Assembly (NCBI GenBank): GCA_001797365.1
Contig: MGPH01000050.1
Span: forward strand, 1-52,106
From: Deltaproteobacteria bacterium GWA2_45_12
Lineage (GTDB): Bacteria; UBA10199
Length of the DNA: 52,106 nt
Direction: 5' to 3'
In this document: piece after piece, positions 9,983-50,263 of the stretch
Numbering within the stretch: position 1 is the stretch's first letter
Layout: each line of letters starts with the position of its first letter
Position numbers and translations under genes: made by a program
The notes under the pieces: model-generated
What the model saw: the letters and a program-made list of their open reading frames with translations, nothing else
Database searches by the model: none
Told to the model about the DNA's origin: nothing

Positions 9983-11872
9983 TTAGGGTAATGGGATGTG
10001 ACAATAACTTGTACATAGATCAGGGGCCCGAAATTCAAGAACGGGGGATCCTCGTCCATTAAAGTGACAATTTCCTTCAGAGCCCCCACATGTATTTTCT
10101 ATGGCCTCAAATACTGCCGGATTTTCAACCCCATTCACAAATTGGGCCTGATGATTTCCATTTTCGTCCACCAATAATGGGTTTCCAAAAATATAAGAGA
10201 GATGAGCTAAATGCTCGCTTGCAGGCGCCCAATCATTAATGCGCCTTCGACCATTCGGCCTTGGATTTCCATACTCAACCCTGACATGGGGAAAGGCCCA
10301 ATGACAACGATAACAATCAGATTGCTGCGCAAGGCCTTCCAATGTGTCGTTCAAAGTAAAAGTAACAGGAGTTCCATGACAATGCCCGCAGGAGGCATTA
10401 ATCCACACATCCACTGAGTTTGGATTTGAATACTGGCTGACATAATAAGCCCCATGCCCCTGGCCATCGGCCCAAGGTTCAGGAATGTTTCGATGCGTCA
10501 CTCCACTGGGATGACAACCCGCCGCCGTACACGAAACACCATTGACCACACGATCATAATCCTGCCCGTGGCATTCGGTGCAGGCATCGTTATCCCCGGC
10601 TCTTACCTTTGCAATAAAGGTCGTCATATGGGTTGGGTTTTGTTCGGCCATCCAGTTTGGATCAAGTTGGTGGGGGTAATTGGGATGGCAATCCTGATTG
10701 ACACATCCCTTAATAAGGGGTTCACGACCTGAAAAATCGGGGCTGTGGCAATTGGCTGAATTACAGTTGTTCTTTCCTTCTCCATAAGCGGCCACTCCAT
10801 GTTGAGCCGCTTGCACCCAGTTTTCATTGTGGGGATAAGTAGTATGACAGTTGGCATTGTAGCAGGAAATATTTGAATTACCGCCCTGGAAATCGTTCCC
10901 ATGACACAGCTTGCACCCCTCTTTTCCATTGAGCAAAGTCACAACTCCATGTTGATCGGGCTGGGGCCATTGTTCATTGTGAGGGAAACTGGCATGGCAG
11001 TTGGCATAACAACTTACCCCTGAAATCCCACCGGTAAAATCATCTCCATGGCATGTTTTACATGCATTTTTTCCTTCTCCCAGGGCTGCAGAGCCGTGAG
11101 TTTCCTGGCGCCAATTATCAGGGTGGGGGTAAGTCGCGTGGCAACTGGCATTGTAACAAGACACATTGGAGATACCGCCTTGGAAATCCTGCCCATGACA
11201 GTCTTTGCAATCTTCTTTTCCTTGGTCATGAGCAAAAAATCCATGTTTTTCTACTTGAGCCCAACCCGACGGATGCGGATAAGTCGCGTGACAATTGGCA
11301 TTGTAACAAGAAGGTCCGAAAACCCCTCCTTTGTAATCTTCCCCATGGCAACTCTTGCAAGATTCTTTGTCGTTCTGAATGACATATAGTCCGTGACTAT
11401 CGGCCGCGGCCCAACCTTCCGGGTGATGGCAGCTTTGGCAAGAAATCCTGGATAACCCGCTAGCCAAATCGGCTCCATGACAATCGGTGGCACAGCCTGC
11501 TGTGCCATTATCACGCACATAAGCGCCATGGTTGATTGGGTCCTTCCAATTTTCCATGTGAGGAAAAAGCGGATGACAACTAATACAGGTGGGGGCCTCT
11601 TTTCGAAGATTGTGGCAAAGAATGCACAAACTGGAATTGGGGTCTTGACCGTTTTGAAGGGTGGATTGGTAAGCCGCCCCATGGTTTACAGGGGCCTTAA
11701 AATTCTTGGCATGAGGGTAATAAACAGGGGCCCCCCCACTTGGATTGGGGGCCCCAATATTCGGATCGGGTTCAACTAATGGAATTGCATTGGGTGTTCG
11801 CCCGCAATGCACCCCCATGAAGGAAGAAAAAACAAACAAGAATATAAAAAAGTAAGTTTTAGGGGCCATCAT
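9983..11872 (-). CDS. Giant multihaem c-type cytochrome with 50-residue dihaem repeats (18-20 haems)
   Basis: 629 aa. N-terminal hydrophobic segment (~6-21) then VHCG, with Cys at 23 in a lipoprotein-like but non-canonical position (His at -1). Haem motifs: CILCH, CISCH, CATDCH, CQSCH, then alternating CX2CH and CX4CH pairs (for example CKSCH ... CYNANCH) through about residue 400. After these come CTECH, CTAAGCH, CGHCH, CYRCH and a terminal CTSYCH. One further CX6CH (CGGSEGNCH) is uncertain. The repeats carry YPH and xHG histidines that may be distal ligands. The first ~165 residues are nearly collinear with the protein at 12068-14260. Possible roles are a periplasm-spanning or surface electron wire; location is not decided by the sequence. 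Confidence 0.85.
   Translation of the reverse strand: MMAPKTYFFIFLFVFSSFMGVHCGRTPNAIPLVEPDPNIGAPNPSGGAPVYYPHAKNFKAPVNHGAAYQSTLQNGQDPNSSLCILCHNLRKEAPTCISCHPLFPHMENWKDPINHGAYVRDNGTAGCATDCHGADLASGLSRISCQSCHHPEGWAAADSHGLYVIQNDKESCKSCHGEDYKGGVFGPSCYNANCHATYPHPSGWAQVEKHGFFAHDQGKEDCKDCHGQDFQGGISNVSCYNASCHATYPHPDNWRQETHGSAALGEGKNACKTCHGDDFTGGISGVSCYANCHASFPHNEQWPQPDQHGVVTLLNGKEGCKLCHGNDFQGGNSNISCYNANCHTTYPHNENWVQAAQHGVAAYGEGKNNCNSANCHSPDFSGREPLIKGCVNQDCHPNYPHQLDPNWMAEQNPTHMTTFIAKVRAGDNDACTECHGQDYDRVVNGVSCTAAGCHPSGVTHRNIPEPWADGQGHGAYYVSQYSNPNSVDVWINASCGHCHGTPVTFTLNDTLEGLAQQSDCYRCHWAFPHVRVEYGNPRPNGRRRINDWAPASEHLAHLSYIFGNPLLVDENGNHQAQFVNGVENPAVFEAIENTCGGSEGNCHFNGRGSPVLEFRAPDLCTSYCHIPLP
10766..11359 (-). 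repeat. Four in-frame dihaem repeat units of 49-50 residues
   Basis: Within the 629-aa cytochrome, units begin at Cys 172, 222, 271 and 320 and end before 370. Each has one CX2CH, an FxGG segment, a second motif CYNANCH or variant, then YPH/FPH, W and HG. Unit length drops from 50 to 49 in the third and fourth. Confidence 0.8.
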
Positions 11873-11953
11873 AAAATTTCCCTACCAATATCTAAGAGTC
11901 CCCTTTTTCCCCAAATCGTCTTAAGTGTAACAATATCTATCTATTTAAATCCA

Positions 11954-11965
11954 TGATTTAAATTA
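11954..11965. promoter_or_regulatory. Near-palindrome TGATTTAAATTA upstream of the 629-aa cytochrome
   Basis: TGAT-TTAA-ATTA, one mismatch from the consensus, about 82 bases upstream of the start at 11872. The same TTTAAATCCATGAT string context recurs in front of the sister gene at 14260. Confidence 0.4.
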
Positions 11966-12067
11966 GGATTTAAATAAATCGTCTTTAAAAAAGCCCCCCT
12001 TTCTTAAAAGAATTATATTTAATTTCAATTGTTTATACTCTTGCATGCCTGTGAAACCAGGGGATGG

Positions 12068-14260
12068 TTATTCAACATGGCATGCCGCTTCGCAATAAGT
12101 ATTGAAAACATGCCAACCGGGATGTTGCCTATTATTGTTATGACATACGCCGCCGCTGGCACCGTAACAGCCCCCTTGATCCATAGTCGACGTCAAAACA
12201 CTTTCAACGCGATCCCTGCATTCCTGAGTACGACAGTTGTTGTCCAAATTGATGCCCGCATAGCCCTCATTATAATAAATAAAGTTTCTATGACCCTCTT
12301 CCCATTGTTGAGAAATAACAATTCCAAGATCAGCTAGGATAGGATCAATTGCCTCGTAATAGACATGAGGATAAGTGGGATGACACGCTTGGTTGTAACA
12401 ACGTTTCACACCATTTTCAGTGAAATCACTAATGAGTGTGGGAGGACTTTCGTTGTCAAATAAGACCGTTGGGCCATGGCAATTTCTGCATTGGGCATCA
12501 AAAACGGGTTGATTGAATTTATCGTAAGGACTTTGCCAGTAAAAATTTTTCCTTAAAACCGATGATCCATGATTTTCGGCCTGGATCCAGTTTTCATCAT
12601 GGGGATAATTTGCATGGCATGTAAAACAGCTCCATGTGTCATTTTCATAATGGCACTTGGCGCATTCTTCGGTTCCTTCGAGAAGAGCATATTGTCTGTG
12701 TCCCTCTTGCCCTTCATCATGCCATACATCACGGTCCCAATGGTTGTCAGGAAATGATGGATGACAATCAGCATTTCCACAATTGGGCAGGCCACGGGCT
12801 ATCCCCTGATCGCCATGACACTGACTGGTTTGACATGTTTGGTCGATATTTTCATAAATATCCCCTGGCATGGCCTTTAGCTGACTACCGTGTTCATCTT
12901 GCCAAGCTTCAAGATGGGGATAAGCAGTGTGGCAATTGGCATTGTAACAGGAGACTCCTGATATGCCTCCGTTAAATTCTTCTCCGTGACAAGCTTTGCA
13001 ATCTTCCTTTCCATTTTGAAGAGCGAAGACACCATGGTTTTCAACTTGGGCCCAATCGGCTTGGTGAGGATAATTGGCATGACAGTTGGCGTTGTAACAA
13101 GTGATACCCGAAATCCCTCCGGTAAAATCATCTCCATGACAGCTCTTACATTCATTTTTTGCATCTCCAACGGCAAGGGCCCCATGATTTTCGGGTTGAG
13201 CCCAATTCTCAGTGTGAGGATAACTGGCATGGCAATTAGAATTATAACAAGTGACCTCTGATATCCCGCCTTTAAAATCTTCCCCATGGCAGTTTTTGCA
13301 TTTTGTCACTCCGGTTAACAAGGCAAACATCCCATGTTGATCAAACTGGGCCCATTGTTCGTTGTGAGGGTAACTGGCATGGCAATTGGCATTGTAACAA
13401 GTAACCCCTGAAATCCCTCCGGTGAAATCATCCCCATGACAAGTTTTACAATCTTCCTTGCCATTTTCATGGGCAAAGAGTCCGTGATTTTCCACTTGCA
13501 CCCAATCGGCTTGATGCGGATAAGTTGTATGACAATTGGCGTTGTAGCAGGAAATATTTGAAATGCCCCCTTTAAAATCTTCCCCGTGGCAACTCTTGCA
13601 ATCTTCTTTTCCCTCCTCATGGGCAAAGAATCCGTGGTTCTCGACCTTGGCCCAATCGGCTTGGTGCGGATAGGTTGTGTGGCAACTGCTGTTATAACAA
13701 GAAGTGTTTGTAACACCGCCCTTGTAATCTTCCCCATGGCATTTTTTGCATGATTCCTTGTCGTTTTGAATGACATACAAACCATGGGTATCCGCAGCGG
13801 CCCACCCTTCGGGATGGTGGCAACTCTTGCATGAAATTCCGGATAAGCCATTTGTCAAATCGGCTCCGTGGCAGTCTGTTGCACAATTTGCGGTCCCATT
13901 CTCACGAACATAGGTTCCATGATTAAGAGGATCCTTCCAATTTTCTATATGAGGAAACTCCGGATGACAACTGCCGCAGGTGGGGGAATCTTTGCGGAAA
14001 TTATGGCAAATAACGCACAAACTTGATTTGGAATTCTGATTGTTACGAATGGTTGCCCGGTAGGCATCCCCATGGGTGGCAGGATTTTTCCAACCCTCGG
14101 CATGGGGATAATAAACAGGGGCCCCACCACTAATATTGGGAGCTCCCGCATTGGGATCAGGCTCAACCAAAGAAACTGCATCGGGCGCGCTTCCACAATG
14201 CACTACAGTCAAAGCAAAAAAAACGAAAAAAAATAGTAAAAACCAATTTTTTGGGAACAT
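12068..14260 (-). CDS. Giant multihaem c-type cytochrome with exact 50-residue dihaem repeats (22-24 haems)
   Basis: 730 aa. Hydrophobic N-terminus (~5-20) and VVHCG with Cys 22. Motifs begin CVICH, CGSCH, CATDCH, CKSCH. Then six repeat units follow with CX2CH at residues 171, 221, 271, 321, 371 and 421, each paired with CX4CH (CYNANCH type) at +17. Later motifs are CQTSQCH, CGNADCH, CAKCH, CFTCH, CRNCH, CYNQACH and a terminal CEAACH; a CX7CH (CYGASGGVCH) is doubtful. The mature protein shares a Pro/Gly-rich start (VEPDPNAGAPN) with its neighbour at 9983. It follows the second NrfD gene on the same strand across a 178-base gap with its own operator-like site. Likely a long multihaem wire linking the quinol-oxidising modules to the outer membrane; inferred. 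Confidence 0.85.
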   Translation of the reverse strand: MFPKNWFLLFFFVFFALTVVHCGSAPDAVSLVEPDPNAGAPNISGGAPVYYPHAEGWKNPATHGDAYRATIRNNQNSKSSLCVICHNFRKDSPTCGSCHPEFPHIENWKDPLNHGTYVRENGTANCATDCHGADLTNGLSGISCKSCHHPEGWAAADTHGLYVIQNDKESCKKCHGEDYKGGVTNTSCYNSSCHTTYPHQADWAKVENHGFFAHEEGKEDCKSCHGEDFKGGISNISCYNANCHTTYPHQADWVQVENHGLFAHENGKEDCKTCHGDDFTGGISGVTCYNANCHASYPHNEQWAQFDQHGMFALLTGVTKCKNCHGEDFKGGISEVTCYNSNCHASYPHTENWAQPENHGALAVGDAKNECKSCHGDDFTGGISGITCYNANCHANYPHQADWAQVENHGVFALQNGKEDCKACHGEEFNGGISGVSCYNANCHTAYPHLEAWQDEHGSQLKAMPGDIYENIDQTCQTSQCHGDQGIARGLPNCGNADCHPSFPDNHWDRDVWHDEGQEGHRQYALLEGTEECAKCHYENDTWSCFTCHANYPHDENWIQAENHGSSVLRKNFYWQSPYDKFNQPVFDAQCRNCHGPTVLFDNESPPTLISDFTENGVKRCYNQACHPTYPHVYYEAIDPILADLGIVISQQWEEGHRNFIYYNEGYAGINLDNNCRTQECRDRVESVLTSTMDQGGCYGASGGVCHNNNRQHPGWHVFNTYCEAACHVE
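12911..13750 (-). repeat. Six exact-length tandem dihaem repeats (150 bp each)
   Basis: Residues 171-450 of the 730-aa cytochrome repeat with a strict 50-residue period and no insertion or deletion. Each unit holds CKxCHGxxF, GGIS, CYNxNCH, YPH, W and ENHG. Nucleotide similarity between units is also high, so they may still recombine. Confidence 0.85.
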
Positions 14261-17398: not shown

Positions 17399-17429
17399 CC
17401 GATGCTCAATTCTTGGAAAGAAGGGTTTT

Positions 17430-18299
17430 TTAAATTGTCTTCTTTAATTGCGGAGCAGGCTCGGCCAAAACGGGCAAACCCGTCATGGCACCCAACCCCA
17501 TCGTTTCGACAGCCGAGGAGGGAACAATAATAATGGAGGAATTTTGTCGCATACCTTCTAACAAAATATTCATGGCCCTTAAATGCAAGGCTGTCGGATT
17601 ATTCACGTATTTTTCGGATGCTTTGCTGAATTTTTCTGAAACTTGTAGTTCGGATTCGCCTAGTATCACCCGAGCCTGTCTCTCCCGCTCGGCCTGGGCC
17701 TGCATGGACATGGCATTTTGTAAATTAGCCGGGATTTTCACATCACGGAGCTCCACAGACAGCACTCTGATACCCCAGGCTTTTGTACTGGCATCAATGG
17801 TCTGACAAAGTTTCGAGTCAATTTGCGCACGGCCCACCAACATATCGGCTAAAATCGTTTCACCAATCACGTCCCGCAGGGCTGTTTGAGAAGCCCACGA
17901 AATGGCTTTTTTGTAATTTTCAACCTCCAAAGCAGCCTTGGCCGGATCAATCACACGCCAGAACAGGACGGCATCTACATCCACAGGCACGCTATCCTTG
18001 GTCAGGGTTTGCTCGGCGGTAAAAGGGGTTGTGATTGTTCTTAAATCGATGCAATAGGGAATGGTATCCACAAAAGGGATGATCGTGAAGAAGCCAGGCC
18101 CTTTGAGCTCCTTAAACTTCCCAAGACGCAGTACGATTGCTCTTTGCCACTGGTTGGCAACCCGACAAACAAAAAGAAAACTCAGCCCTAGTACAGCTCC
18201 CATCAAGCCGTAAGCACCCACGGATGTAACTTCCCATGCTACAAACCCGGCAACCGTTGACACTATCAACACAATTAAAATAAATGGATGTAACTTCAT
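17430..18299 (-). CDS. SPFH/band-7 protein (slipin-like), first gene of module copy 1
   Basis: 289 aa. Two hydrophobic segments at the N-terminus (~5-45), then an SPFH domain: QWQRAIVLRLGKFKELKGPGFFTIIPFVD, LRTITTPFTAEQTLTKDSVPVDVDAV, RDVIGE and a C-terminal QAQAERERQARVILGESE helix. This is the slipin (stomatin-like) arrangement; such proteins oligomerise on the membrane and organise or protect complexes. AGGAGA lies 8 bases before the ATG. It precedes the tetrahaem cytochrome by 31 bases, and an identical arrangement starts module copy 2. No NfeD-type protease partner is seen, so a scaffolding role for the redox complex is the simplest guess. Confidence 0.85.
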   Translation of the reverse strand: MKLHPFILIVLIVSTVAGFVAWEVTSVGAYGLMGAVLGLSFLFVCRVANQWQRAIVLRLGKFKELKGPGFFTIIPFVDTIPYCIDLRTITTPFTAEQTLTKDSVPVDVDAVLFWRVIDPAKAALEVENYKKAISWASQTALRDVIGETILADMLVGRAQIDSKLCQTIDASTKAWGIRVLSVELRDVKIPANLQNAMSMQAQAERERQARVILGESELQVSEKFSKASEKYVNNPTALHLRAMNILLEGMRQNSSIIIVPSSAVETMGLGAMTGLPVLAEPAPQLKKTI

Positions 18300-18411
18300 G
18301 GATGTTTTTTCTCCTATGATGGTTATGCAATCAAACTGCTTCTGTCGTTCATGCCAAAACCCATATCAGCTCCTTCATAAAACCAGCCATGACTCAGATC
18401 ATGTGCACAAA

Positions 18412-18423
18412 TGATCATGATCA
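18412..18423. promoter_or_regulatory. TGAT-N4-ATCA palindrome upstream of module copy 1
   Basis: TGATCATGATCA, perfect and itself fully symmetric, about 113 bases upstream of the slipin start at 18299, in the only gap between the two modules. A weaker TGACTCAGATCA is at 18390-18401. Confidence 0.6.
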
Positions 18424-18441
18424 TGGCTCAAAAAGTGCGAA

Positions 18442-19686
18442 TCATTCTTCCTTACTCATTTTCGGAAAATCGAGGGATTCTTCCTGCCATCTCAGCTTTC
18501 CAGATTCAATGGGAATCGCCGCTTTCAAAAGAAGGGTAAAAATAAAAAATCCCGTAGCCCAAATACCCACGCAAACTTGAATCTCCGTAAGAGAAGGAGC
18601 ATATTCGACAATGTCACCCAAAGGAGTGGGAATGAATCCCGGCACAATGAGCCCCATGCCTTTCTCAATCCAGATGCCCACAATAGCGCATCCTGACGCG
18701 ATATTGATGTAAAGCCGGTTTTGATTGAGCCCGGGGCTAATGTAAGTGATAGTTGCAATAATATTGAGGACAATGGCAGTCCAGATAAACGGGACTAAAA
18801 GGTGATAGCCGTGCAACCCCGTAAAAAGATATTGAGCGGAGGCACTGTGGACTGAATCGGTGTAAAACTCTTTGAACAGCTCACATACCAGAAGAAAAAG
18901 ATTAATCACAAGCGTGACTGCGATGATTCTCTTTAAAACCTTATAAACTTCATGATCCACTTTAAGACTCGAGAACTTTTCAATGACCTGTAGGGACAGG
19001 AGAATAAAAGAAGGTCCTACTGCAAAGGCAGATGCTAAAAAACGAGGCGCTATGATGGCCGAATTCCAGAAAGGCTTACCCCCGAGACCTGAATAGAGAA
19101 AAGCCGTCACAGTATGAATGCTGACAGCCCAAAAGATGGAGATCATCACAAAGGGCATGTAATAATGTGAAGTTGGTTCCTGACCCCGATATTTTTTATA
19201 GAGAAGATAACCAGGAATGTGCAGGTTCAAGAGCAAGTAACCATTAAGCACAATCACGTCCCAGGTCAACATCGAGATGGGCCAGTTCATGCGACCAAGC
19301 TTTGGAATTAAGTGCCATAGACGGTCTGGCCTGCCCATATCTACGGTTACAAACAAGAGGCACATGACAATCGACGCAATGGCAAACAGTTCCCCCACAA
19401 GAAGAATCTCTTTTATGGACTTGATCTTGTAGACATAGGCAGGAATCACCAGCATAACAGCTGCTGCAGCCAAACCGACAATATAGGTGAAATTGGCAAT
19501 ATAGGCGCCCCAGGATACCTGGTCGGTCATGTTGCTGAGAATGAGACCTTCTTGAAGTTGCCGCGCATAGCCCGCGACTCCTATCAATATCAACACACCC
19601 AGGAAACCCAGCCAGGCAAAGTAAATACGGGGGCCTTGGTAGACCTGCCGGATCATATCTTTCCAGAATTGAATATATGCTGACAT
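18442..19686 (-). CDS. NrfD/PsrC-family membrane quinol-oxidising subunit (module copy 2)
   Basis: 414 aa, about ten hydrophobic segments, collinear with 14439-15743: WLGFLGVLILIGVAGYARQ, QVSWGAYIANFTYIVG, RPDRLWHLIP, LNLHIPGYLLYKKY, SIHTVTAFLYSGLGG, EKGMGLIVPGFIPTPLGDIVEY. The C-terminus is about 20 residues shorter than copy 1. NrfD-type subunits hold the quinone site and hand electrons to a periplasmic ferredoxin. It is the last gene of module copy 2, 32 bases after the ferredoxin gene. Confidence 0.87.
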   Translation of the reverse strand: MSAYIQFWKDMIRQVYQGPRIYFAWLGFLGVLILIGVAGYARQLQEGLILSNMTDQVSWGAYIANFTYIVGLAAAAVMLVIPAYVYKIKSIKEILLVGELFAIASIVMCLLFVTVDMGRPDRLWHLIPKLGRMNWPISMLTWDVIVLNGYLLLNLHIPGYLLYKKYRGQEPTSHYYMPFVMISIFWAVSIHTVTAFLYSGLGGKPFWNSAIIAPRFLASAFAVGPSFILLSLQVIEKFSSLKVDHEVYKVLKRIIAVTLVINLFLLVCELFKEFYTDSVHSASAQYLFTGLHGYHLLVPFIWTAIVLNIIATITYISPGLNQNRLYINIASGCAIVGIWIEKGMGLIVPGFIPTPLGDIVEYAPSLTEIQVCVGIWATGFFIFTLLLKAAIPIESGKLRWQEESLDFPKMSKEE

Positions 19687-19718
19687 ATTTTAAATCCTAA
19701 AACTTGAATGCCATTAAC

Positions 19719-20675
19719 CTAATCAAAAAAATAATAAAAATGCGGATATGTTTTTAAATCTTCCTTAAGAACAAAAATCCGCTTTTCCTGAATAATGTTT
19801 CTCACCTCGCTATTCGGGTCTAAAAGATTCCCGAATTTTCTGGAACCTGTTGGGCATGCCTCAAGACATGCCGGGTAACGACCCTGACGCGTCCTGTGAA
19901 GACAAAACGTACATTTTTCCATAACCCCACGCGGACGAATACGGTTTGAAAGATATCCCTGCTCAGGATTGATCTCTTCAGCGGGTATTTTGGGAGTTGC
20001 AAAATTAAAGCGTCTGGCCTCGTATGGGCAAGCAGCTTCGCAATACCGGCAACCAATGCACCAGTTGTAATCGATAACGACAATGCCATCCTTCTCCTTC
20101 CAGGTTGCTTCGACAGGACACACCTTGGTACAAGGCGGATTCCGGCACTGATGGCACTGAACAGGCATGTAGAATTTGTCTTTTCGAGGAACTTGGTCCG
20201 TATCGTAATATATGTCACCCTTTTCCACGTCGAGCGAGCCTTTGGGAATTTCAAGAACTTTAATGTATTGTATTTGTGGGTCACGCGATTGGTTATTTTC
20301 AGCCACACACGCATAAACACATCGCCGGCATCCGACACATTTTGAAAGATTGAGAAAATAGGCAAACTCGACTCCATCCATCGGCGGCGGATCGCCAATC
20401 CGGACTTTAACCCCGTATTTCTTCTCAGTTTCTTTTTCCAGACGAGCAAAAATCCTTTTTTTATCCTCGGGAGTAAGCTCCTGGTAATGCCTTTGGAAGA
20501 ATTCCCCCTGAAGAAATCCATCGATGGTAAACGCCTGGCTGGACTCAGGTGAAAGCGCCATCGCCGAAGCGACACCGGCAACAGCACCTTTCAAAAACGT
20601 TCGCCGGGAAACCGTCTTCTTTAGCTTGCGATCAATGAGGTGTTTCGTCCTCTTTGTGTTTCTGTTTTCCTTCAT
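19719..20675 (-). CDS. Tat-exported four-cluster ferredoxin subunit, complete Cys set (module copy 2)
   Basis: 318 aa from the ATG at 20675 (GGAA upstream); a TTG at 20690 would add five residues. Twin-arginine motif SRRTFLKG. All four Cys motifs are intact: CVGCRRCVYAC, CHQCRNPPCTKVC, CIGCRYCEAAC and CTFCLH...CLEAC, so four [4Fe-4S] clusters are expected. Related to DsrO/NrfC-type subunits that bridge an NrfD protein and a c-type cytochrome. The gene overlaps the end of the tetrahaem cytochrome gene by 44 bases. Compare with copy 1, where one Cys of the first cluster is Asn. Confidence 0.87.
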   Translation of the reverse strand: MKENRNTKRTKHLIDRKLKKTVSRRTFLKGAVAGVASAMALSPESSQAFTIDGFLQGEFFQRHYQELTPEDKKRIFARLEKETEKKYGVKVRIGDPPPMDGVEFAYFLNLSKCVGCRRCVYACVAENNQSRDPQIQYIKVLEIPKGSLDVEKGDIYYDTDQVPRKDKFYMPVQCHQCRNPPCTKVCPVEATWKEKDGIVVIDYNWCIGCRYCEAACPYEARRFNFATPKIPAEEINPEQGYLSNRIRPRGVMEKCTFCLHRTRQGRYPACLEACPTGSRKFGNLLDPNSEVRNIIQEKRIFVLKEDLKTYPHFYYFFD

Positions 20676-21279
20676 AAATAAAATTTCCAAACAAGAGCTT
20701 CAAAAATGATCGACTTTTCCCTTTTGGGAGCACGGGCGGCGGCTTGGGTGTGAGTGGTTTGAATTTAGGATCATGGGGATCGTGGCATTCCGGACACGAA
20801 GATACTTCACGCGGCCCGTTCCATAACCCGACCCTTTTGCCGTGTATGTTCTTGTTCCAGTCATCTAAAATCGTACCATGGCATTCTCCGCAGATAAGAT
20901 AGGTCTCATTAAAGGTGATCTCCCGTCCACTTTGAAGATAGAGTTTCTTGTAATTTCCTTTCTGGTGGCAGGTATGGCACCATCTTTCTTCTTGACCGTC
21001 CGTGGCTGCGAAATGGAGCTTTTTGTCGGTGTGTTCCTCATCCAGCACGCGCTTCTCTGTGTTGAAATCCCCAGGCGTGCTGTGACAGTCATCGCAGGGA
21101 TACATTTCAAGCTTGGAAATGCGTTTAAGAATCTTATCCCCCCCAATTCCGGAAACCGGCTGAGCTGACGTCACCGGTGGGTTCGCAGATTCCGCACCCT
21201 GACTTACAAAGGCAGGAAGCAAGGTGAGCCCTAAAAGGAACCCTACTTTAAGAACGGGTTGTCTTAGACCATATGTCAT
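20632..21279 (-). CDS. Exported tetrahaem cytochrome c (module copy 2)
   Basis: 215 aa. Signal peptide (VGFLLGLTLLPAFVSQGA) and four haem motifs CDDCH, CHTCH, CGECH and CPECH. GGAG sits 6 bases before the ATG at 21279. It lacks the N-terminal insert of copy 1 and represents the ancestral layout. Its C-terminus (about 25 residues, Lys-rich, including SRSFLKLLFGNF) is longer than that of copy 1 and runs over the start of the ferredoxin gene. Likely the electron exit of a quinol-oxidising slipin/cytochrome/ferredoxin/NrfD complex. Confidence 0.85.
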   Translation of the reverse strand: MTYGLRQPVLKVGFLLGLTLLPAFVSQGAESANPPVTSAQPVSGIGGDKILKRISKLEMYPCDDCHSTPGDFNTEKRVLDEEHTDKKLHFAATDGQEERWCHTCHQKGNYKKLYLQSGREITFNETYLICGECHGTILDDWNKNIHGKRVGLWNGPREVSSCPECHDPHDPKFKPLTPKPPPVLPKGKSRSFLKLLFGNFIYEGKQKHKEDETPH

Positions 21280-21309
21280 TCGATGCTCCGTTCTTAAAAG
21301 AAAAGATTT

Positions 21310-22176
21310 TTAAACTGTCACTTTTTTTTGCGGAGCTTGCTGGGCTAAGGCAGCCAAACCCGTCATGGCGCCCAATCCCATCGTCTCAACAGCCGAGGAG
21401 GGGACAATAATAACGGATGAGTTCTGCCTCATTCCTTCCAACAAGATATTCATGGCCCTTAAGTGCAAGGCTGTGGGGTTGTCTTTGTACCTCTCAGAAG
21501 CTTTTTCGAATTTTTCAGCCACCTGAAGTTCCGATTCGCCAAGAATCACCCTGGCCTGTCTTTCCCTTTCAGCCTGGGCTTGCATGGACATGGCATTCTG
21601 CAATGCCTGGGGGATTTTCACATCCCTTAGTTCCACCGATAAAACCTTGATCCCCCATGCGGTGGCACTGGCATCGATTCTTGCACAGAGTTTGTGATCA
21701 ATTTCCCGCCTGCCCACAAGCATTTCGGACAAATCGGTTTCACCAATCACATCCCGAAGGGCTGTTTGCGAAGCCCATGAAACCGCTTTCTTGAAATTTT
21801 CGACTTCCAAAGCGGCTTTTACCGGATCAATCACACGCCAGAACAAAACAGCATCCACATCCACGGGGACACTGTCTTTTGTCAGGGTTTGCTCTGCGGT
21901 AAACGGGGTAGCCACGGTTCTAAGGTCAATGCAGTAGGGGATCGTATCGACAAACGGGATGATGGAAAAAAAGCCCGGGCCTTTAAGCCCATTAAATTTA
22001 CCAAAACGCAACATCACAACTCTTTGCCATTGGCTAACCACACGAAAAATGAAAATACAAAGGCCCCCCGAAAGAAATCCAAGCACACCAAAAGCAGCAT
22101 GACTTGTGGCTAGCGCCCCGCCCACCCCAAGTATTGTTATGCTTAAGGCTAAAACTAAAATAAATGGATGCATCAT
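21310..22176 (-). CDS. SPFH/band-7 protein (slipin-like), first gene of module copy 2
   Basis: 288 aa, collinear with 17430-18299 and highly similar in the SPFH domain (QWQRVVMLRLGKFNG-like start, FSIIPFVDTIPYCIDLRT, FTAEQTLTKDSVPVDVDAV, QAQAERERQARVILGESE, SSAVETMGLGAMTGL). Two N-terminal membrane segments. GGAG precedes the start codons. As the promoter-proximal gene of the whole 22-14 kb run it carries the operator-like site about 107 bases upstream. Keeping a slipin in both module copies implies that it works with the redox subunits. Confidence 0.85.
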   Translation of the reverse strand: MMHPFILVLALSITILGVGGALATSHAAFGVLGFLSGGLCIFIFRVVSQWQRVVMLRFGKFNGLKGPGFFSIIPFVDTIPYCIDLRTVATPFTAEQTLTKDSVPVDVDAVLFWRVIDPVKAALEVENFKKAVSWASQTALRDVIGETDLSEMLVGRREIDHKLCARIDASATAWGIKVLSVELRDVKIPQALQNAMSMQAQAERERQARVILGESELQVAEKFEKASERYKDNPTALHLRAMNILLEGMRQNSSVIIVPSSAVETMGLGAMTGLAALAQQAPQKKVTV

Positions 22177-27136: not shown

Positions 27137-27279
27137 TTCGATCACCGCGTAGCGGGATCCCGTTTGCGGGACAAGCTCAGGGTGTCCTTTATGTAAGGGC
27201 AATTCATGAATTGCCCTTACACGATACGGACATGGTGAGCCCCGTCCCGCAAACGGGACCCCGCTACGCGGTGGTCGAA
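27137..27279. repeat. Composite palindromic element (36-bp arms around a 28-bp palindrome)
   Basis: Arms 27137-27172 and 27244-27279 start TTCGATCACCGCGTAGCGGG / end in its complement with two mismatches. In the centre (27193-27220) lies the palindrome GTAAGGGCAATTCA-TGAATTGCCCTTAC. It resembles a non-autonomous mobile element and recurs at 49737-49878 and, in part, at 42660. Confidence 0.75.
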
Positions 27280-31718: not shown

Positions 31719-31813
31719 CGGAGCTCCCTCCAGAGGAGGGCAGGCAGGATGCCCTTTTTGTAAGGGCAATTCATGAATTGCCCCTACCCAGACATGAGGC
31801 TCCTCGAACCATG
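31719..31813. repeat. Dispersed palindromic element with central GTAAGGGC palindrome
   Basis: Contains GTAAGGGCAATTCA-TGAATTGCCCCTAC (31760-31787, one base off perfect) flanked by gagctccctcc...gggcaggcagg and tcctcgaaccatg. The flanks resemble those at 46799-46867. Confidence 0.65.
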
Positions 31814-31833: not shown

Positions 31834-32928
31834 CTACACATTAAACCTAAAGTGCATCAGGTCGCCGTCCTTCACCACATATTCTTTTCCTTCCGATCGC
31901 AGCAACCCCGCTTCCTTTATTTTTTGTTCTGATCCAAGACGAATAAGGTCATCGTAGTGATAAACTTCTGCGCGAATAAATCCTTTTTCAAAATCGGAAT
32001 GAATAACACCAGCTGCTTGCGGCGCCAGGGCTCCACGAATAACTGTCCATGCCCGCACTTCCTTGGGGCCGGCGGTAAAATAGGTGATCAGATTAAGCAA
32101 TCTGTAGGCAGCCGTTCCCAAACGATCAAGACCTGATTCTGTAAGACCATAATCTTTCAGAAAAGCCGTTTTTTCTTCTTCCTGCATCTGCGCTATTTCT
32201 GATTCGATCGAGCCACAAATAATCACGACCTGTGTCCCTTCTTTGGCAGCCAATTCCTGCACTTTGGCCACACTGGGAGGAGGATTTGTGACATGGGCTT
32301 CGTCAACATTGCAAACATAGAGCACGGGTTTGGCCGTAATCAAAAACAACGGGACCAAATGTTCTTTTTCTTCCGGGGACAAACGAAGGGAGCGTATGGG
32401 ATTGGCTTCATTTAAGGCCGCACGCACTTTTTCAAGAACAGCCACTTCGGCGGCAATTTTTTTGTCGCCAACTTTGACAAGCCTTGCCTGCTTTTCGATG
32501 CGTTTTTCCACAGCCTGAAGATCGGCTAAAATCAGCTCGGTGTTGATCACTTCAATATCACGAATGGGATCAACTTCCCCATGCACATGCACCACATCGG
32601 CATTTTCAAAACAACGCACAATATGGGCGATGGCGTCCACATTTTTGATATTCCCCAAAAACTGGTTTCCCAAGCCCTCACCGGTAGAAGCCCCTTTGAC
32701 AAGGCCGGCAATATCTACAAACTCAACTGTTGTGGGAAGAATCTTTTCAGGTTTAAAAAGCTCGGCAATGCGTTTCATCCGGAGGTCGTTTAAGGGCACC
32801 ACCCCCACATTGGGCTCAATGGTGCAAAACGGATAGTTTGCCGCTTGAGCCCCTGCATTGGTAAGCGCATTGAAAATGGTGGACTTGCCAACATTGGGAA
32901 GCCCTACGATGCCACAATTAAAACCCAT
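31834..32928 (-). CDS. ychF: Redox-regulated ATPase/GTPase YchF (Obg family)
   Basis: 364 aa, full length. P-loop GLPNVGKST, FCTIEPN, switch DIAGLVKGASTGEGLGN and, in place of NKxD, a CNVDE motif typical of YchF proteins that prefer ATP. A coiled-coil insert is followed by the TGS-like C-terminus (YFTAGPKEVRAWTVIRG, IHSDFEKGFIRAEV). YchF binds ribosomes and affects stress responses; the exact role is open. Confidence 0.95.
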   Translation of the reverse strand: MGFNCGIVGLPNVGKSTIFNALTNAGAQAANYPFCTIEPNVGVVPLNDLRMKRIAELFKPEKILPTTVEFVDIAGLVKGASTGEGLGNQFLGNIKNVDAIAHIVRCFENADVVHVHGEVDPIRDIEVINTELILADLQAVEKRIEKQARLVKVGDKKIAAEVAVLEKVRAALNEANPIRSLRLSPEEKEHLVPLFLITAKPVLYVCNVDEAHVTNPPPSVAKVQELAAKEGTQVVIICGSIESEIAQMQEEEKTAFLKDYGLTESGLDRLGTAAYRLLNLITYFTAGPKEVRAWTVIRGALAPQAAGVIHSDFEKGFIRAEVYHYDDLIRLGSEQKIKEAGLLRSEGKEYVVKDGDLMHFRFNV

Positions 32929-33054
32929 GCGCGACCTTTAGTGGAGAAAAACGAAAGAATCAAGTTGATAGAACAATGCGGCTTTAACTAAGATTTGACT
33001 TCGGAATTCAAATTTATTTATGGTGACATTTCATTATTCCTGATGGGAGGTTTC

Positions 33055-34908
33055 ATGCCTTTTCAAAAATTGATGAAAAGTTTGGTGATTGTTTTCTCCT
33101 TTTTCTTGTTGCTTTCAAAGCAAGTGTGGGCCGTGCCGGTGGACCTCGACGGCGATTTTGGGCAAGCCGGATCTGCGTTTGCTCAACTCCCCGTCGATTG
33201 GGAAATCACTTACACCGACATGGTGCTGTTAGAAAACGGCCAAATCCTTGCGACAGCTTCAGTCTATCTGGATGCCCCACGATGCCAATGCGCCCCGGAA
33301 GAAATCATGTGCAACCAACCGGAAGGCTGCCTCTTCTCAGAACCTTCAGGGCAGGATTCCCTTGTTTTGACACGATATAACCCTGATGGAAGCGTCGATG
33401 AAAATTTTGGGAATGGAGGGTTTTCCATCATTTCTTTTCCCGAATGGGATGGGCTTGAATTATCAAAATTAGCAGTCCGGCATGACGGTAAAATTGTGGT
33501 GATGGGATATGCCTGGGTAGGGCCGGATCGTCAGGAATTGGTGGGGCTTCTTCTTCCTGACGGGCAGATCGACCCCGACTTCGGCCACGGAGGTTTTGTG
33601 ACCGGTCAGGATGGCCTCTTTGGGATAAACGATGACTCTTACCGTTTTGCCCTTCAAGCCGATGGCAAAATCTTGGTATCGGGCCGGCTTCAGGGCCAAG
33701 ACCGTTCCGTCATTTTGGGACGTATTGCAGAAGACGGCTCCATCGATGACACATTTGGGAATCAGGGATCCATCAACATCTGGCAACTGGCTCCGGAGGA
33801 GGAGCGCTATGTCATCAAGAATATATTTCAACAGCCCGATGGTAAAATTCTTACCGTCGGTGGCATGTACCGTCCCGCCCAAGCCAACGGGATGCTTGTT
33901 GCAGGACAAGAAGTGCTTGCCTTGCGTTTTTTTGCCAATGGGGAACCGGACGCCGGATTTGGTGCGGGAGGAAAAGTATCCATGGATGTCAGCCCTGATT
34001 CCATGGACACGGCCACAAAGGCCATCATTGGGGAAGATGGTCGTATTCTTCTTTTGGGAAACGGAAGATTCGAAGGGCCCTACCTGGGAGACACCATCCA
34101 ACCCTTTCTGATTCGGTTGATGGAGGATGGCCGGGTGGATCCCGGTTTTGGTGAAAACGGAATTGTACGGGCTTCCATGCGCGATGATCGCGGCAGTCTT
34201 TGGAATACGGACATGGCTCTAGATGACCGTGCCAACATCGTCGTTAGCATGACACGATGGTACGAGAACGAAAATGACCCCATGCGCACCAACATGCTCT
34301 TGGCCCGCTATAGGACCAATGGCCGCCTTGATCGGGATTTTGGAAACAATGGTTTCATCGAGAGGGAAAACCATCCTTATGGAAAAATATTAATACAGGA
34401 TGATGGCAAGCTCCTCTTAAGTTCGGGGTTTAACCTCGCTCAAATGCAGGTGAATCGTTACGTTCCGCCCATCAGACAGGAAGCCGATCTGGAAGTAAGA
34501 TCCCTTTTCAGAATGCCCGTCGTCACACGACCAAACCGCAAGGTCGTTTATGATTTCGAAGTGACCAACCATGGCCCCATCGCTGCCCAAAATACCAAAT
34601 GGGCCGTTTCCATGCCTGGAATCCAGGGATCCTTGAACGCCAAAACCAGTCAAGGGCGGTGCCAAACCATCATCCAACCCCCAAGAGTGGAACAAATCAA
34701 TCCTTGGACCCGTGTGGAATGTCTGTTCGGTGTCGTGGAAGTAAATGCACGAATTTCAATTTCGGTTGTTGTCCTTTCCCAAGTGGCAGGTGTTTTCAAC
34801 CACAGAACCGCAACAACAAGCCAAACACGGGATCCTGATGAAATGAATAATTCGGGAGGATGGGTTTTACGAGTGGGCGGACAAAATGCGTTCGAAAGAC
34901 GGCCGTAA
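33055..34908 (+). CDS. Exported delta-60-repeat protein with DUF11-like C-terminal domain
   Basis: 617 aa from the ATG at 33055, placed after GGGAGG; an earlier in-frame start (32995) lacks one. Signal peptide ends at about VWA-VP. Seven delta-60 repeats of the form DGxxDxxFGxxG are seen (NPDGSVDENFGNGG, LPDGQIDPDFGHGG, AEDGSIDDTFGNQG, ANGEPDAGFGAGG, MEDGRVDPGFGENG, TNGRLDRDFGNNG, plus the starting DLDGDFGQAG), expected to form a beta-propeller-like fold. The last ~130 residues (ADLEVRSLFRMP...FEVTNHGP) look like a DUF11 beta-sandwich. Probably secreted or on the surface; a cluster of Cys in CQCAPEEIMCNQPEGC may form disulfides. Confidence 0.78.
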   Translation: MPFQKLMKSLVIVFSFFLLLSKQVWAVPVDLDGDFGQAGSAFAQLPVDWEITYTDMVLLENGQILATASVYLDAPRCQCAPEEIMCNQPEGCLFSEPSGQDSLVLTRYNPDGSVDENFGNGGFSIISFPEWDGLELSKLAVRHDGKIVVMGYAWVGPDRQELVGLLLPDGQIDPDFGHGGFVTGQDGLFGINDDSYRFALQADGKILVSGRLQGQDRSVILGRIAEDGSIDDTFGNQGSINIWQLAPEEERYVIKNIFQQPDGKILTVGGMYRPAQANGMLVAGQEVLALRFFANGEPDAGFGAGGKVSMDVSPDSMDTATKAIIGEDGRILLLGNGRFEGPYLGDTIQPFLIRLMEDGRVDPGFGENGIVRASMRDDRGSLWNTDMALDDRANIVVSMTRWYENENDPMRTNMLLARYRTNGRLDRDFGNNGFIERENHPYGKILIQDDGKLLLSSGFNLAQMQVNRYVPPIRQEADLEVRSLFRMPVVTRPNRKVVYDFEVTNHGPIAAQNTKWAVSMPGIQGSLNAKTSQGRCQTIIQPPRVEQINPWTRVECLFGVVEVNARISISVVVLSQVAGVFNHRTATTSQTRDPDEMNNSGGWVLRVGGQNAFERRP

Positions 34909-34912
34909 GTAG

Positions 34913-34963
34913 GAAATCACACTTCTTGAATGACCGGGATCACCACCGGTTTGCGGTCAAGTT
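34913..34963. repeat. 51-bp direct repeat, displaced copy of the RNase J gene 3' end
   Basis: Identical over 51 bases to 35457-35507. It encodes, on the minus strand, the last 14 codons and stop of RNase J (ends VVIPVIQEV) but is cut off from that gene by the two-gene DUF2283 cassette. Confidence 0.9.
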
Positions 34964-35168
34964 ATATAGATGAACTTGAAATTGTTTGATAAGAAACATC
35001 CAGGCTCTTGTCTTTCTGCCGGGCATGCTCGATAGTCATGCTTATCACCTTACCATCCTTGTCCAAGTCAATGAGGATGTTTTCGTTCAAATCTTTCGTT
35101 TCAATAACCTTCCCGTCAGAAAGAGTTATATGAAGCGTATCTGTATCTGGAAAATATTTTAATTTCAT
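34962..35168 (-). CDS. DUF2283 protein (possible antitoxin partner)
   Basis: 68 aa. The sequence MKLKYFPDTDTLHITLSDG ... ENILIDLDKDGKVISMTIEHA is the DUF2283 pattern, a small beta-alpha fold often found next to small DUF4258-like or related proteins. A perfect AGGAGG lies 5 bases before the ATG, and the gene starts immediately after the stop of its partner. Its own stop touches the displaced 51-bp repeat. Toxin-antitoxin function is a guess from the pairing. Confidence 0.75.
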   Translation of the reverse strand: MKLKYFPDTDTLHITLSDGKVIETKDLNENILIDLDKDGKVISMTIEHARQKDKSLDVSYQTISSSSI

Positions 35169-35408
35169 TTATTCCTCCTGAAAATCACGATCAAAAAAAG
35201 CATTATGCACTGTTTCCTTATCCTCCAACAAAATGACTCTCAAATATTTATTGCCTGCCTCTTTTATTTTACCCCACAACCGAATGCGATCATCTTTTTG
35301 AATTTCTTTCTTTATCGGTTTTTGAATCACCTCCTCAATCCATTCGAATTTAATCCCCACACGATCTGGGCGCTTCATAGCAAATTTGAAATATTGCGAA
35401 GTTTTCAT
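35169..35408 (-). CDS. Small partner protein of the DUF2283 gene (DUF4258-like)
   Basis: 79 aa. KRPDRVGIKFEWIEEVIQKP, RIRLWGKIKEAGNKYLRVILLED and VHNAFFDRDF make a compact alpha/beta protein that resembles those regularly encoded with DUF2283; I recognise the pattern but not a biochemical function. The two genes abut with no gap and lie between the 51-bp direct repeats, so they were probably acquired together. The order (this gene first) would fit toxin then antitoxin. Confidence 0.65.
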   Translation of the reverse strand: MKTSQYFKFAMKRPDRVGIKFEWIEEVIQKPIKKEIQKDDRIRLWGKIKEAGNKYLRVILLEDKETVHNAFFDRDFQEE

Positions 35409-35456
35409 AATGATACCCGCTTATCAAACTACTTTCAAGCCAAGCATTCCTTGATA

Positions 35457-35507
35457 GAAATCACACTTCTTGAATGACCGGGATCACCACCGGTTTGCGG
35501 TCAAGTT
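35457..35507. repeat. 51-bp direct repeat, native copy inside the RNase J gene 3' end
   Basis: Matches 34913-34963 base for base and includes the RNase J stop codon at 35461. The two copies bracket a 493-base insert containing just two genes. Confidence 0.9.
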
Positions 35508-37122
35508 CTTTATTGAAAAAACGTCTTAAGGCCACGCGCACCTCTTCCTGAACTTCGGCCAGATCTTTTCGTTCTTCAAAGTTAAAACTTTCCAAAAGTT
35601 CCGTCACAATTTTTTTGGCCCGTTCAAAAATTTCCTGGCCGTCTTCTGCCTCGATAAATCCACGTGAAATAAGTTCTGGCCCGCGCAAGATTTCACCCTT
35701 CACACGGTCGATCATCAGCACGCAAATAACAATACCCGTACCGGCAAGCTGGCGTCTGTCACGCAATACAACGGTATCAATATCCCCAATGCCACTGCCA
35801 TCGACAAACACACGTCCCACTTGCAGCCCTCCCTCCCTTGCGCCCTTTTTATTGTCAAAAAGAAGGGTCTGCCCATTTTCAACCACAAAAATATTTTCCT
35901 TCTTCACTCCCCATTCTTTCACCAATTGGGCATGTTGAAGCAATTGACGATAAGCCCCGTGTATAGGAATAAAATGTCTTGGTCTTAATTTTTTAACGGC
36001 GGTTTCAAGCTCGTCTTGATGGGCGTGCCCCGAGGTGTGAATATCGTGGATGGCTTCATAGAGCACCTTGGCCCCATGGCGCGAAAGCTGGTCAATGTTG
36101 TGATAAATATTACGTTCATTTCCGGGGATCACACGGGCCGAATACAAAACCAAATCCCCCTCGGCAATCTGGAAAGGCTTGAAATTATTATGAGCCAGGC
36201 GCGTCAAAACCGAACGCGGTTCTCCTTGGGTCCCTGTCACCAAAAGCATCACGCGTGAAGGGTCAAGGCCCCTGGTTTCTTCCACATCCACAACATCCAC
36301 ACCGGCAAAGGAAAGACTTCCCAGTTGGTTGGCAAGCTTTGTATTTTCCTTCATGCTGCGCCCCAGCAGCGAAACAACACGACCGGTTTCTTTGGCTATT
36401 TCTAAAAGCCCCTGCACGCGCTGAACATTGGAAGCAAACAAAGTCACAATAATGCGCCCCTGGTGCTTTTTAACGATTTTTTTGATCTGTTTTAAAACTT
36501 CTTTTTCAGAAAGGGTGGCCCCCGAAATATTCACATTGGTTGAATCGGAAAAAAGCGCCAACACCCCTTCTTTTCCCCAGCGTTTGAAAGTTTTGAGATC
36601 GGTGGAAAGCCCTGAAGGGGGCGTGTAGTCAATCTTCCAGTCCGTCAGATGAATAATGGAACCTTGATCGGTTTGAATGGCCAGGGCACACGCATCGAGA
36701 ATACTATGATTGACAAAAGCGGTCTGAATTTCAAAAGAGCCCAGCTTGACCGTGTCTCCTGGCTTGAAAACATTGATCCTTGGTTTTTTGGGAAGCGCAT
36801 ATTCCTCACATTTTTCACGGATAAGCCCCGCGGTAAAGGGAGTGGCATAAACAGGAATATTGAATTGTCTAAGCAAAAAAGGAGAGGACCCGATATGGTC
36901 TTCGTGACCATGCGTGAAAATGATTCCCTTGAGTTTGTGGCGGATGGATTCAAGCGATGAAAAGTCGGGAATAATCAGATCAACACCCAAGATTTCTTCA
37001 TCGGGAAACATGGAACCGCTATCGATCAAAAAAGCCTCGGTGGCCGTTTCGTACAACATGCAATTCAGGGAACCGATCTCACCAACCCCGCCTAACGGGG
37101 TAATCCATATTTTTTCTGTCAT
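35461..37122 (-). CDS. rnj: Ribonuclease J
   Basis: 553 aa, full length. Metallo-beta-lactamase fold: GGVGEIGSLNCMLYE, zinc motif HGHEDHIG at 71-77, HSILDACAL, SDSTN, the beta-CASP segment (IIVTLFASNVQRVQG, LVTGTQGEPRSVL) and the C-terminal GHAHQDEL with IPIHGAYR. RNase J has 5'-exonuclease and endonuclease activity in RNA processing and decay. Its 3' end is duplicated downstream as a 51-bp direct repeat around a small cassette, but the reading frame is intact. Confidence 0.95.
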   Translation of the reverse strand: MTEKIWITPLGGVGEIGSLNCMLYETATEAFLIDSGSMFPDEEILGVDLIIPDFSSLESIRHKLKGIIFTHGHEDHIGSSPFLLRQFNIPVYATPFTAGLIREKCEEYALPKKPRINVFKPGDTVKLGSFEIQTAFVNHSILDACALAIQTDQGSIIHLTDWKIDYTPPSGLSTDLKTFKRWGKEGVLALFSDSTNVNISGATLSEKEVLKQIKKIVKKHQGRIIVTLFASNVQRVQGLLEIAKETGRVVSLLGRSMKENTKLANQLGSLSFAGVDVVDVEETRGLDPSRVMLLVTGTQGEPRSVLTRLAHNNFKPFQIAEGDLVLYSARVIPGNERNIYHNIDQLSRHGAKVLYEAIHDIHTSGHAHQDELETAVKKLRPRHFIPIHGAYRQLLQHAQLVKEWGVKKENIFVVENGQTLLFDNKKGAREGGLQVGRVFVDGSGIGDIDTVVLRDRRQLAGTGIVICVLMIDRVKGEILRGPELISRGFIEAEDGQEIFERAKKIVTELLESFNFEERKDLAEVQEEVRVALRRFFNKELDRKPVVIPVIQEV

Positions 37123-41289: not shown

Positions 41290-41335
41290 CCCCCTTAATC
41301 CCGCGAAGCGGGATCCCGTTTGCGGGATAAGGGGG
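41290..41335. repeat. Dispersed palindromic element (CCCTTAATCCCGC / GCGGGATAAGGG)
   Basis: Arms at 41290-41304 and 41322-41335 with CCCGCGAAGCGGGATCCCG between them. The same string recurs at about 42746-42787. It lies in the 204-base gap before yajQ, which also holds GTCCGCCTTTGGCGGA. Confidence 0.65.
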
Positions 41336-42654: not shown

Positions 42655-42790
42655 CTCTCCTTCGATCGCCGCGTAGCGGGATCCCGTGCGCGGGACAAGC
42701 TCAGGACGGCGCTTATAAAGGAGGGGAGAATTTGACAATCTCCTCCCCTTTGTCCCGCGAAGCGGGATCCCGTTTGCGGGATAAGGGGAG
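42655..42790. repeat. Partial composite palindromic elements before the fabH-like gene
   Basis: Holds TTCGATCGCCGCGTAGCGGG with GGGACAAGCTCAGG (like 27137), and GTCCCGCGAAGCGGGATCCCG (like 41296), flanked by repeated cctccccttt/aggggagg strings. No gene seen. Confidence 0.6.
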
Positions 42791-47445: not shown

Positions 47446-47865
47446 ATGAGAATTCTGGGCTTGGATGTCGGCACAAAAACGGTGGGCGTGGCTTTAAGCG
47501 ATCCCTTGCGGATGACAGCCCAACCGGTGGAAACCATCCGTTATCAAACCGTGTCGCAAGCCTGGAAACGCCTGGCTGAAATCATCAAAAGCCAGACCGT
47601 CAGGCAAATTGTGGTGGGGCTTCCCTTAAACATGAATGGATCAGAAGGCCCCCAGTCGGAAAAAGTGCGGAAATTCATGGACGACTTTTTAAAATGGGCC
47701 AAAAATATTAATGTCACGATCACTTTTTGGGACGAACGGCTGTCGACGGTGGGCGCCGAACGTGTGTTGCTCGAAGCCGATCTTTCCCGCGCAAAACGGG
47801 CCAAAGTCATCGATAAAATGGCCGCCGTGTTTATTTTGCAGGGGTATTTGGATTCACTTAGCTAG
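47446..47865 (+). CDS. ruvX: Putative pre-16S rRNA nuclease / Holliday junction resolvase YqgF (RuvX)
   Basis: 139 aa from the ATG at 47446; an earlier in-frame start overlaps the Fur promoter. RNase H-like fold: ILGLDVGTKTVGVALSDP, IVVGLPLNMNGSEGPQSEKV, WDERLSTVGAERVL with Asp and Glu catalytic residues, and DKMAAVFILQGYLDS. In bacteria YqgF processes the 16S rRNA 5' end. Divergent from fur and followed by mltG. Confidence 0.93.
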   Translation: MRILGLDVGTKTVGVALSDPLRMTAQPVETIRYQTVSQAWKRLAEIIKSQTVRQIVVGLPLNMNGSEGPQSEKVRKFMDDFLKWAKNINVTITFWDERLSTVGAERVLLEADLSRAKRAKVIDKMAAVFILQGYLDSLS

Positions 47866-47867
47866 TT

Positions 47868-47895
47868 GTAAGGGCAATTCATGAATTGCCCTTAC
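47868..47895. repeat. 28-bp palindrome (GTAAGGGC family) before mltG
   Basis: Perfect GTAAGGGCAATTCA-TGAATTGCCCTTAC. Its inner ATG would start the downstream frame as MNCPYKI, which is not a natural start. Confidence 0.9.
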
Positions 47896-49736: not shown

Positions 49737-49878
49737 TAAATGCCGAGTAATGGTTCGATCACCGCGTAGCGGGATCTCGTGCGCGGGACAGGCTTAGGGT
49801 TTCCTTTTTGTAAGGGCAATTCATGAATTGCCCTTACCCGGACATGGTGAGCTCCGTCGAACCATCACTCGGCATTTA
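49737..49878. repeat. Composite palindromic element with 12-bp outer and 9-bp inner terminal repeats
   Basis: Outer arms TAAATGCCGAGT (49737-49748) and ACTCGGCATTTA (49867-49878); inner ATGGTTCGA (49750-49758) and TCGAACCAT (49857-49865). Between them lie the GCGTAGCGGG block and the 28-bp palindrome (49810-49837), as at 27137-27279. Confidence 0.75.
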
Positions 49879-49891
49879 CCAGACCCGTTTT

Positions 49892-50233
49892 ATGAAATAC
49901 CTTTTACTTTTATTTTTTTTACTCCCCATCATTTCACACGCCCAACAACGCAACAAGTTTGACAACCATCGTGACACCCGCGCCCAAGAAGAAACCGTTG
50001 ACGAGCAAATAGACCAAATCCCCATTTTTCGCGACAAGGTGGAAGGAGATTATGTCATTTTGGGGGAAATCGACGGCCAGGATGTGTTTAACAAAAATAT
50101 TAAAGGAATTGTGAAACAGATACGAGTCAAGGCCTACCAGCTTAAAGCCGATGCCGTTATGGAATTTAGCTGCCAGGAAGGCTGGAAAAAAACATTTCAG
50201 TACTGTGCCGGGTACGCGATTAAGTATAAATAA
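49892..50233 (+). CDS. Small exported protein of unknown function
   Basis: 113 aa from the ATG at 49892 (MKYLLLLFFLLPIISHAQ signal peptide); the ATG at 49823 belongs to the repeat (MNCPY). The mature part has IPIFRDKVEGDYVILGEIDGQDVF, IVKQIRVKAYQLKADAVMEFSCQEG and two Cys. The KAYQLKADAVMEF stretch resembles the end of YbjQ-like small domains, but this is weak. Probably periplasmic. Confidence 0.6.
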   Translation: MKYLLLLFFLLPIISHAQQRNKFDNHRDTRAQEETVDEQIDQIPIFRDKVEGDYVILGEIDGQDVFNKNIKGIVKQIRVKAYQLKADAVMEFSCQEGWKKTFQYCAGYAIKYK

Positions 50234-50235
50234 CC

Positions 50236-50263
50236 GTAAGGACGATTCATGAATCGCCCCTAC
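50236..50263. repeat. Diverged 28-bp palindrome (GTAAGGAC variant)
   Basis: GTAAGGACGATTCA-TGAATCGCCCCTAC: the inner part has compensatory changes (gacgatt/aatcgcc) that largely keep pairing. It lies just before cstA. Confidence 0.8.

Follow-up and report, generated by a model that had tools for sequence, protein, structure and literature searches.

The 3' ends of genes, that of tmRNA included, are classic sites for integrases. Restriction-modification systems are able to insert while duplicating a long stretch of target, variable in length and on the order of 100 bp, as related in section 7 of PMC3874152 and in PMC1643837, through which the descriptions by Nobusato et al. (2000) and Furuta et al. 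(2010) are cited here. Among small toxins, DUF4258 is tabulated as a BECR-fold family whose target is listed as unknown (PMC11980606). The footprint described below bears on a question about solitary chromosomal toxin-antitoxin pairs: by what means they pass from genome to genome when no carrier element takes them along.

This footprint lies at the end of an RNase J gene in the window, the whole stretch of 52,106 nucleotides from Deltaproteobacteria bacterium GWA2_45_12 that was analysed. The favoured reading, to which we assign a probability of about 0.6, is that a bare toxin-antitoxin operon fragment was inserted here without a recombinase and with duplication of 51 bp of the target. The features concerned, in the order met along the minus strand, are these:

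35461 to 37122, minus strand: RNase J, 553 aa, the intact target gene (Pfam RNase_J_b_CASP and RNase_J_C; NCBIfam TIGR00649)
35457 to 35507, minus strand: 51-bp repeat, copy inside RNase J (exact repeat)
34964 to 35456, minus strand: the unit, 493 bp of unique sequence bounded by the two copies, with a promoter-like site and two genes
35410 to 35438, minus strand: sigma-70-like site TTGAAA-17-TATCAT, 1 base before the toxin ATG (consensus scan only)
35169 to 35408, minus strand: DUF4258-like protein, 79 aa, presumed RelE/BECR-type toxin (Pfam match below cut-off; AlphaFold2 model)
34962 to 35168, minus strand: DUF2283 protein, 68 aa, presumed antitoxin (PF10049; stop shared with the repeat)
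34913 to 34963, minus strand: 51-bp repeat, downstream copy (exact repeat)
32995 to 34908, plus strand: gene for a DUF5122/DUF11 protein; it converges on RNase J and separates the unit from ychF
31834 to 32928, minus strand: ychF-type GTPase; in two relatives from the same order it comes immediately after RNase J

Comparison of the window with itself shows that the 51 bp at 34913-34963 recur without a mismatch at 35457-35507, in direct orientation and 544 bp from start to start; an exact match of 51 bases cannot be due to chance. The copy inside RNase J comprises 14 codons and the stop, four bases past the stop, and two bases of the preceding codon. A gap of 4 bp separates the downstream copy from the stop codon of the DUF5122/DUF11 gene, which runs convergently. 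The minus strand thus reads RNase J, 52 bp, the 79-aa gene, the 68-aa DUF2283 gene, and then the RNase J end once more. The original prediction, of an exact repeat of the RNase J end around two small coupled genes, with RNase J intact and no recombinase inside, stands on each of these points: Pfam RNase_J_C spans residues 452-553 of 553, so the gene is complete to its C-terminus, and the 79-aa and DUF2283 reading frames are the only ones between the copies, neither of them a recombinase or integrase. Neither a third copy of the 51 bp nor a second DUF2283 was found in the source genome (a draft of 68 contigs).

The two genes are tightly coupled. The TAA of the 79-aa frame (35408 to 35169) abuts the ATG of the DUF2283 frame (35168 to 34962), whose own stop, TAA at 34964-34962, runs into the repeat, the first bases of which complete it. 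DNA similarity of the DUF2283 gene to its nearest relative (locus L039) stops seven bases short of the gene end. A stop made by the junction, together with similarity that ends near the gene end, is as expected for an arbitrary breakpoint. At the other edge, a TATAAT-like site (five of six bases) lies at most 45 nt upstream in 48 of 81 family loci, against 263 of 1620 random sites.

The window also holds repeats of other kinds. A palindromic REP-like repeat, TGTAAGGGCAATTCATGAATTGCCCTTAC, has five dispersed copies (27178-27220, 31745-31787, 47853-47895, 49795-49837, and 50221-50263), and a second palindromic repeat, CCCGCGAAGCGGGATCCCGTTTGCGGGA, has near-identical copies at 41291-41334 and 42745-42788 with a weaker third at 42659. 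The segments 10761-13751 and 17417-21910 contain 150-nt repeat arrays and diverged paralogous blocks, probably repetitive coding sequence.

The 79-aa protein matches Pfam DUF4258 (PF14076) with E=0.04 and 14.7 bits, below the gathering cut-off of 25, and is hence called DUF4258-like only. Its AlphaFold2 model (pLDDT 93) has the order HHEEEE; the best PDB matches to that model, HigB2 (E 0.066) and BrnT (E 0.85), are weak and not significant. The 68-aa protein belongs to DUF2283 (PF10049; E=8e-18, 64.8 bits, cut-off 23), and its model is all-beta, with no DNA-binding fold recognized in it. Plasmid relatives of the 79-aa protein directly precede genes annotated DUF2283, and one relative is itself annotated DUF4258. 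A scan of the whole collection with a four-row alignment yielded a sample of 80 relatives from many phyla: DUF2283 lies side by side with the toxin gene, within 300 nt, in 80 of 80, and the gap between the genes (measured for 78) ranges from -11 to 5, most commonly -4, often as an overlapping ATGA. Conserved adjacency and likeness to DUF4258 make a toxin-antitoxin role likely, much as the original prediction suggested, and DUF2283 thereby gains a likely role as the antitoxin of DUF4258-like toxins. Models of defence systems gave no match, and the papers searched contain no mention of DUF2283.

Relatives support insertion at this site. In two genomes of the same order (G003 and G004; loci L005 and L006), RNase J is followed directly by ychF and the pair is absent; in the window, ychF lies 2.5 kb from RNase J, beyond the pair and the convergent gene. 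The original prediction proposed a search for the empty site. Here the comparison reached as close as the order, since the relatives searched included none from the same genus or family. The exact precursor arrangement, in which RNase J, with one copy of the 51 bp, would meet the DUF5122 gene tail to tail, was not seen. (The DUF5122/DUF11 gene at 32995-34908 may likewise be an insertion, since RNase J and ychF adjoin in the two relatives.)

Is the window a singular case? For each locus with enough flank (78 in all), 400 bp of left flank were aligned with 400 bp of right flank. A direct duplication with a score of at least 20 brackets 15 of the 78 pairs (window included) versus 15 of 936 sites chosen at random from those loci; once palindromes and low-complexity matches are filtered out, the figures are 11 of 78 versus 8 of 936 (leaving out the window, p is about 1e-7); and in the DUF4258 family without the window, 17 of 87 pairs are bracketed by direct duplications of local host DNA, all three being automatic counts that contain some terminators or paralogues. 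At the same score, inverted matches occur at 2 of 78 loci and matches between flanks of different loci in 1 of 770 pairs. Duplicated gene ends around other DUF2283 pairs, which the original prediction proposed to look for, therefore occur far above chance; one, at tyrS (L018), is in the window's own phylum. Most of the loci come from metagenome-assembled genomes, and L096/L108 and L048/L051 are not independent.

Some candidates did not hold or are doubtful. The repeats at four Chloroflexi loci (L048, L051, L056, and L059) were dropped as common terminators; L115, with a duplicated HicA-like gene, and L186, with a pair of DUF559 paralogues, probably do not represent duplicated targets either.

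The original prediction took relatives that stand elsewhere without repeats to count against insertion. About 80% of family members are of this kind, the nearest relative (L015/L039) included. They leave insertion unrefuted: the enrichment is real, and a repeat may have decayed or may not form at every event.

Size is informative as well. Where DUF4258 loci have long flanks, duplications are in excess only if the DNA added between the copies is 800 bp or less (11 locus-bin counts in 45 loci, versus 6 in 491); beyond that, rates are near baseline. With the excess restricted to units barely larger than the operon, the inserted unit is the operon itself and not a large island.

Flanking duplications are not special to DUF2283. 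In the same 50 genomes, 17 of 73 BrnT pairs are bracketed, versus the 17 of 87 for DUF4258, and HicA pairs show the same rate (6 of 30, taking the better of two gene orders). Controls came from two gene families outside toxin-antitoxin systems: cold-shock genes (2 of 50, one or both of them tandem paralogues) and IVP genes (5 of 65, all five low-complexity). Pooled DUF4258 and BrnT pairs differ from these pooled controls with p = 3e-4. Across three toxin families and many phyla, about one pair in five is bracketed by duplicated host DNA.

The IVP control uncovered a pattern of its own. These solitary four-helix genes (PF05635; L215-L244 and L275-L314) have imperfect simple repeats in inverted orientation, for example CAGTTGTCAGTAACTGATAACTG, on either side, with an inverted score of at least 20 at 25 of 65 loci and at least 14 at 49 of 65; this suggests a mobile unit with terminal inverted repeats.

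What is duplicated differs at every locus: local host DNA without a common core, about 25-175 bp across the DUF4258 loci and up to 377 bp for BrnT. Gene 3' ends recur as targets: RNase J; tyrS, where the pair at L018 lies directly after the gene and a second tyrS tail lies about 100 bp behind the pair; a pilT-like gene (L076); tmRNA (L112); and a hydrolase (L041). Other duplications take in an R3H ATPase, the end of hypF with the start of hypC (L108), gene starts (L079, L173, and L199), and intergenic DNA. A fixed target gene was considered and rejected, as flanking genes rarely recur between loci. The original prediction's attachment site at the 3' end of a protein gene, taken as one of the integrase type, is not supported by this survey: the repeats vary in sequence and length from locus to locus, and they include gene starts and intergenic DNA. 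(Around 4658-5712 of L054, the pair sits between two truncated neuB-like N-terminal pieces, neither of which continues to a full gene.)

These observations suggest a mechanism in which a small fragment, comprising the promoter-like site, the DUF4258-like toxin, and the DUF2283 antitoxin, would enter RNase J at its 3' end, carrying no recombinase, and leave a direct target duplication of 51 bp and a whole RNase J. The duplication would arise at insertion, by either of two routes. In the first, the fragment would be joined into a staggered break, and fill-in would duplicate the target. In the second, the fragment would come from a donor with a homologous gene end already attached, and recombination would be one-sided. 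Once formed, the direct repeats would render the insert prone to deletion, and yet a cell would be expected to keep an addictive pair: if the repeats recombined, the pair would be lost and the toxin set free, so addiction may explain the persistence of unstable insertions.

Differences between the copies bear on the choice of route. At several loci they are rich in synonymous changes even though one copy is a fragment: L054 has eight synonymous differences and no other (8:0), and the corresponding ratios are 8:1 at L041, 8:3 at L076, 4:2 at L173, and 5:1 at L125; in the tyrS tail of L018, all four differences in a 40-nt match are synonymous. Over 17 loci the combined synonymous excess has p = 9e-7 against a null of random changes, with the frame taken as the best of six and the same choice applied in the null. 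As gene fragments could hardly diverge synonymously in place, this suggests that the extra gene end sometimes arrived with the pair, and the route by donor fragment is favoured at L018, L041, L054, L125, and L076. Other copies (L108, L203, and L199) seem instead to have decayed where they stand; in the hypF-hypC duplication at L096/L108 it is the non-functional parts that decay, which fits fill-in.

Could the RNase J end itself have arrived in this way? A fragment or small circle would then have carried a homologous RNase J 3' end together with the pair, and one-sided or Campbell-type homologous recombination would have duplicated the shared stretch. The synonymous differences just described at the six loci speak for such donors, but the decay in place at the three others does not, and no genome within the order was found with the pair already behind RNase J. 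The window's own copies are identical; they are silent on a donor and cannot decide between the two routes. For the window this account seems unlikely, and fill-in of a staggered break is preferred for this locus with its identical copies.

An integrase-bearing island that entered at the gene 3' end, and of which all but the addictive pair was later deleted, is an improbable source. It would account for targets at gene 3' ends, tmRNA (L112) among them; element-borne gene ends often carry synonymous changes; and a toxin-antitoxin pair would survive deletion longest. Against it, the duplication excess is found only at operon-size units, the copies share no core, and gene starts and intergenic DNA are hit too. 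Moreover, the toxin has no relatives in phage records or viral-contig collections, and a search of viral contigs for RNase J gave no match.

More improbable still is that the pair first stood behind RNase J and that a local template switch later copied the 51 bp to its far side. The repeat does form the DUF2283 stop, as if 51 bp had been pasted into the tail of that gene; but the pair is absent from RNase J in the two order relatives, and the many loci with duplications around exactly such units would be left unexplained. Least credible is an assembly artefact, a de Bruijn join that duplicated a 51-mer in a metagenome contig: the genome is a draft, and an exact repeat of this length would suit a plausible k, but both junctions need real reads across them, and independent assemblies show this arrangement too, with copies that have diverged and come in many lengths.

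Insertion of the bare operon fragment thus remains the favoured reading for the window. A broader generalization is tentative, and on balance doubtful: that small type II toxin-antitoxin operons are generally autonomous insertion units, bare 0.5-kb fragments that insert into host genes with a preference for gene edges, leave long direct duplications, lack a recombinase or fixed ends, sometimes restore the target with a donor gene end, and are kept since their loss by recombination of the repeats is lethal. The footprint, present on about a fifth of pairs and common to restriction-modification systems, makes insertions datable and yields predictions of empty sites. It also allows a direct test of whether addiction stabilizes otherwise unstable insertions.

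How does the locus compare with described systems? With the DUF4258 toxins of the BECR fold (PMC11980606) it shares a weak profile match, an HHEEEE model, and a small upstream gene in a coupled pair. It differs from the entries tabulated there, which have the order antitoxin-toxin: here the match is below the Pfam cut-off, the toxin gene comes first, and the partner is DUF2283. BrnT-BrnA type II systems are alike in gene order, size, and rate of flanking duplication, and BrnT is among the best fold matches; however, no homology was detected at the Pfam level, and the presumed antitoxin is a DUF2283 protein, modelled as all-beta, whereas BrnA is ribbon-helix-helix. Integrase elements at gene 3' ends (tRNA, tmRNA, or protein genes) also restore their target and leave a direct repeat of the 3' end, but here there is no integrase and no common attachment core, the unit is 0.5 kb, and gene starts are hit as well.

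The closest analogy is with the insertion of restriction-modification systems. In both cases a selfish, addiction-type gene pair without a recombinase would be bracketed by a long, variable, direct duplication of host DNA, and the marks of insertion with long target duplication are found here: duplicated host sequence around an addiction-type unit, variable length, and no recombinase in the unit. The differences are that these units are toxin-antitoxin pairs of about 450-600 bp, from three toxin families and many phyla, and that the extra copy appears to be donor-borne at some loci. A literature search covering few subscription journals found no report of such insertion for toxin-antitoxin pairs as a class, so the variant appears new and the kind known. 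The best reading is that the restriction-modification pattern of insertion extends to toxin-antitoxin pairs, probably stabilized by addiction.
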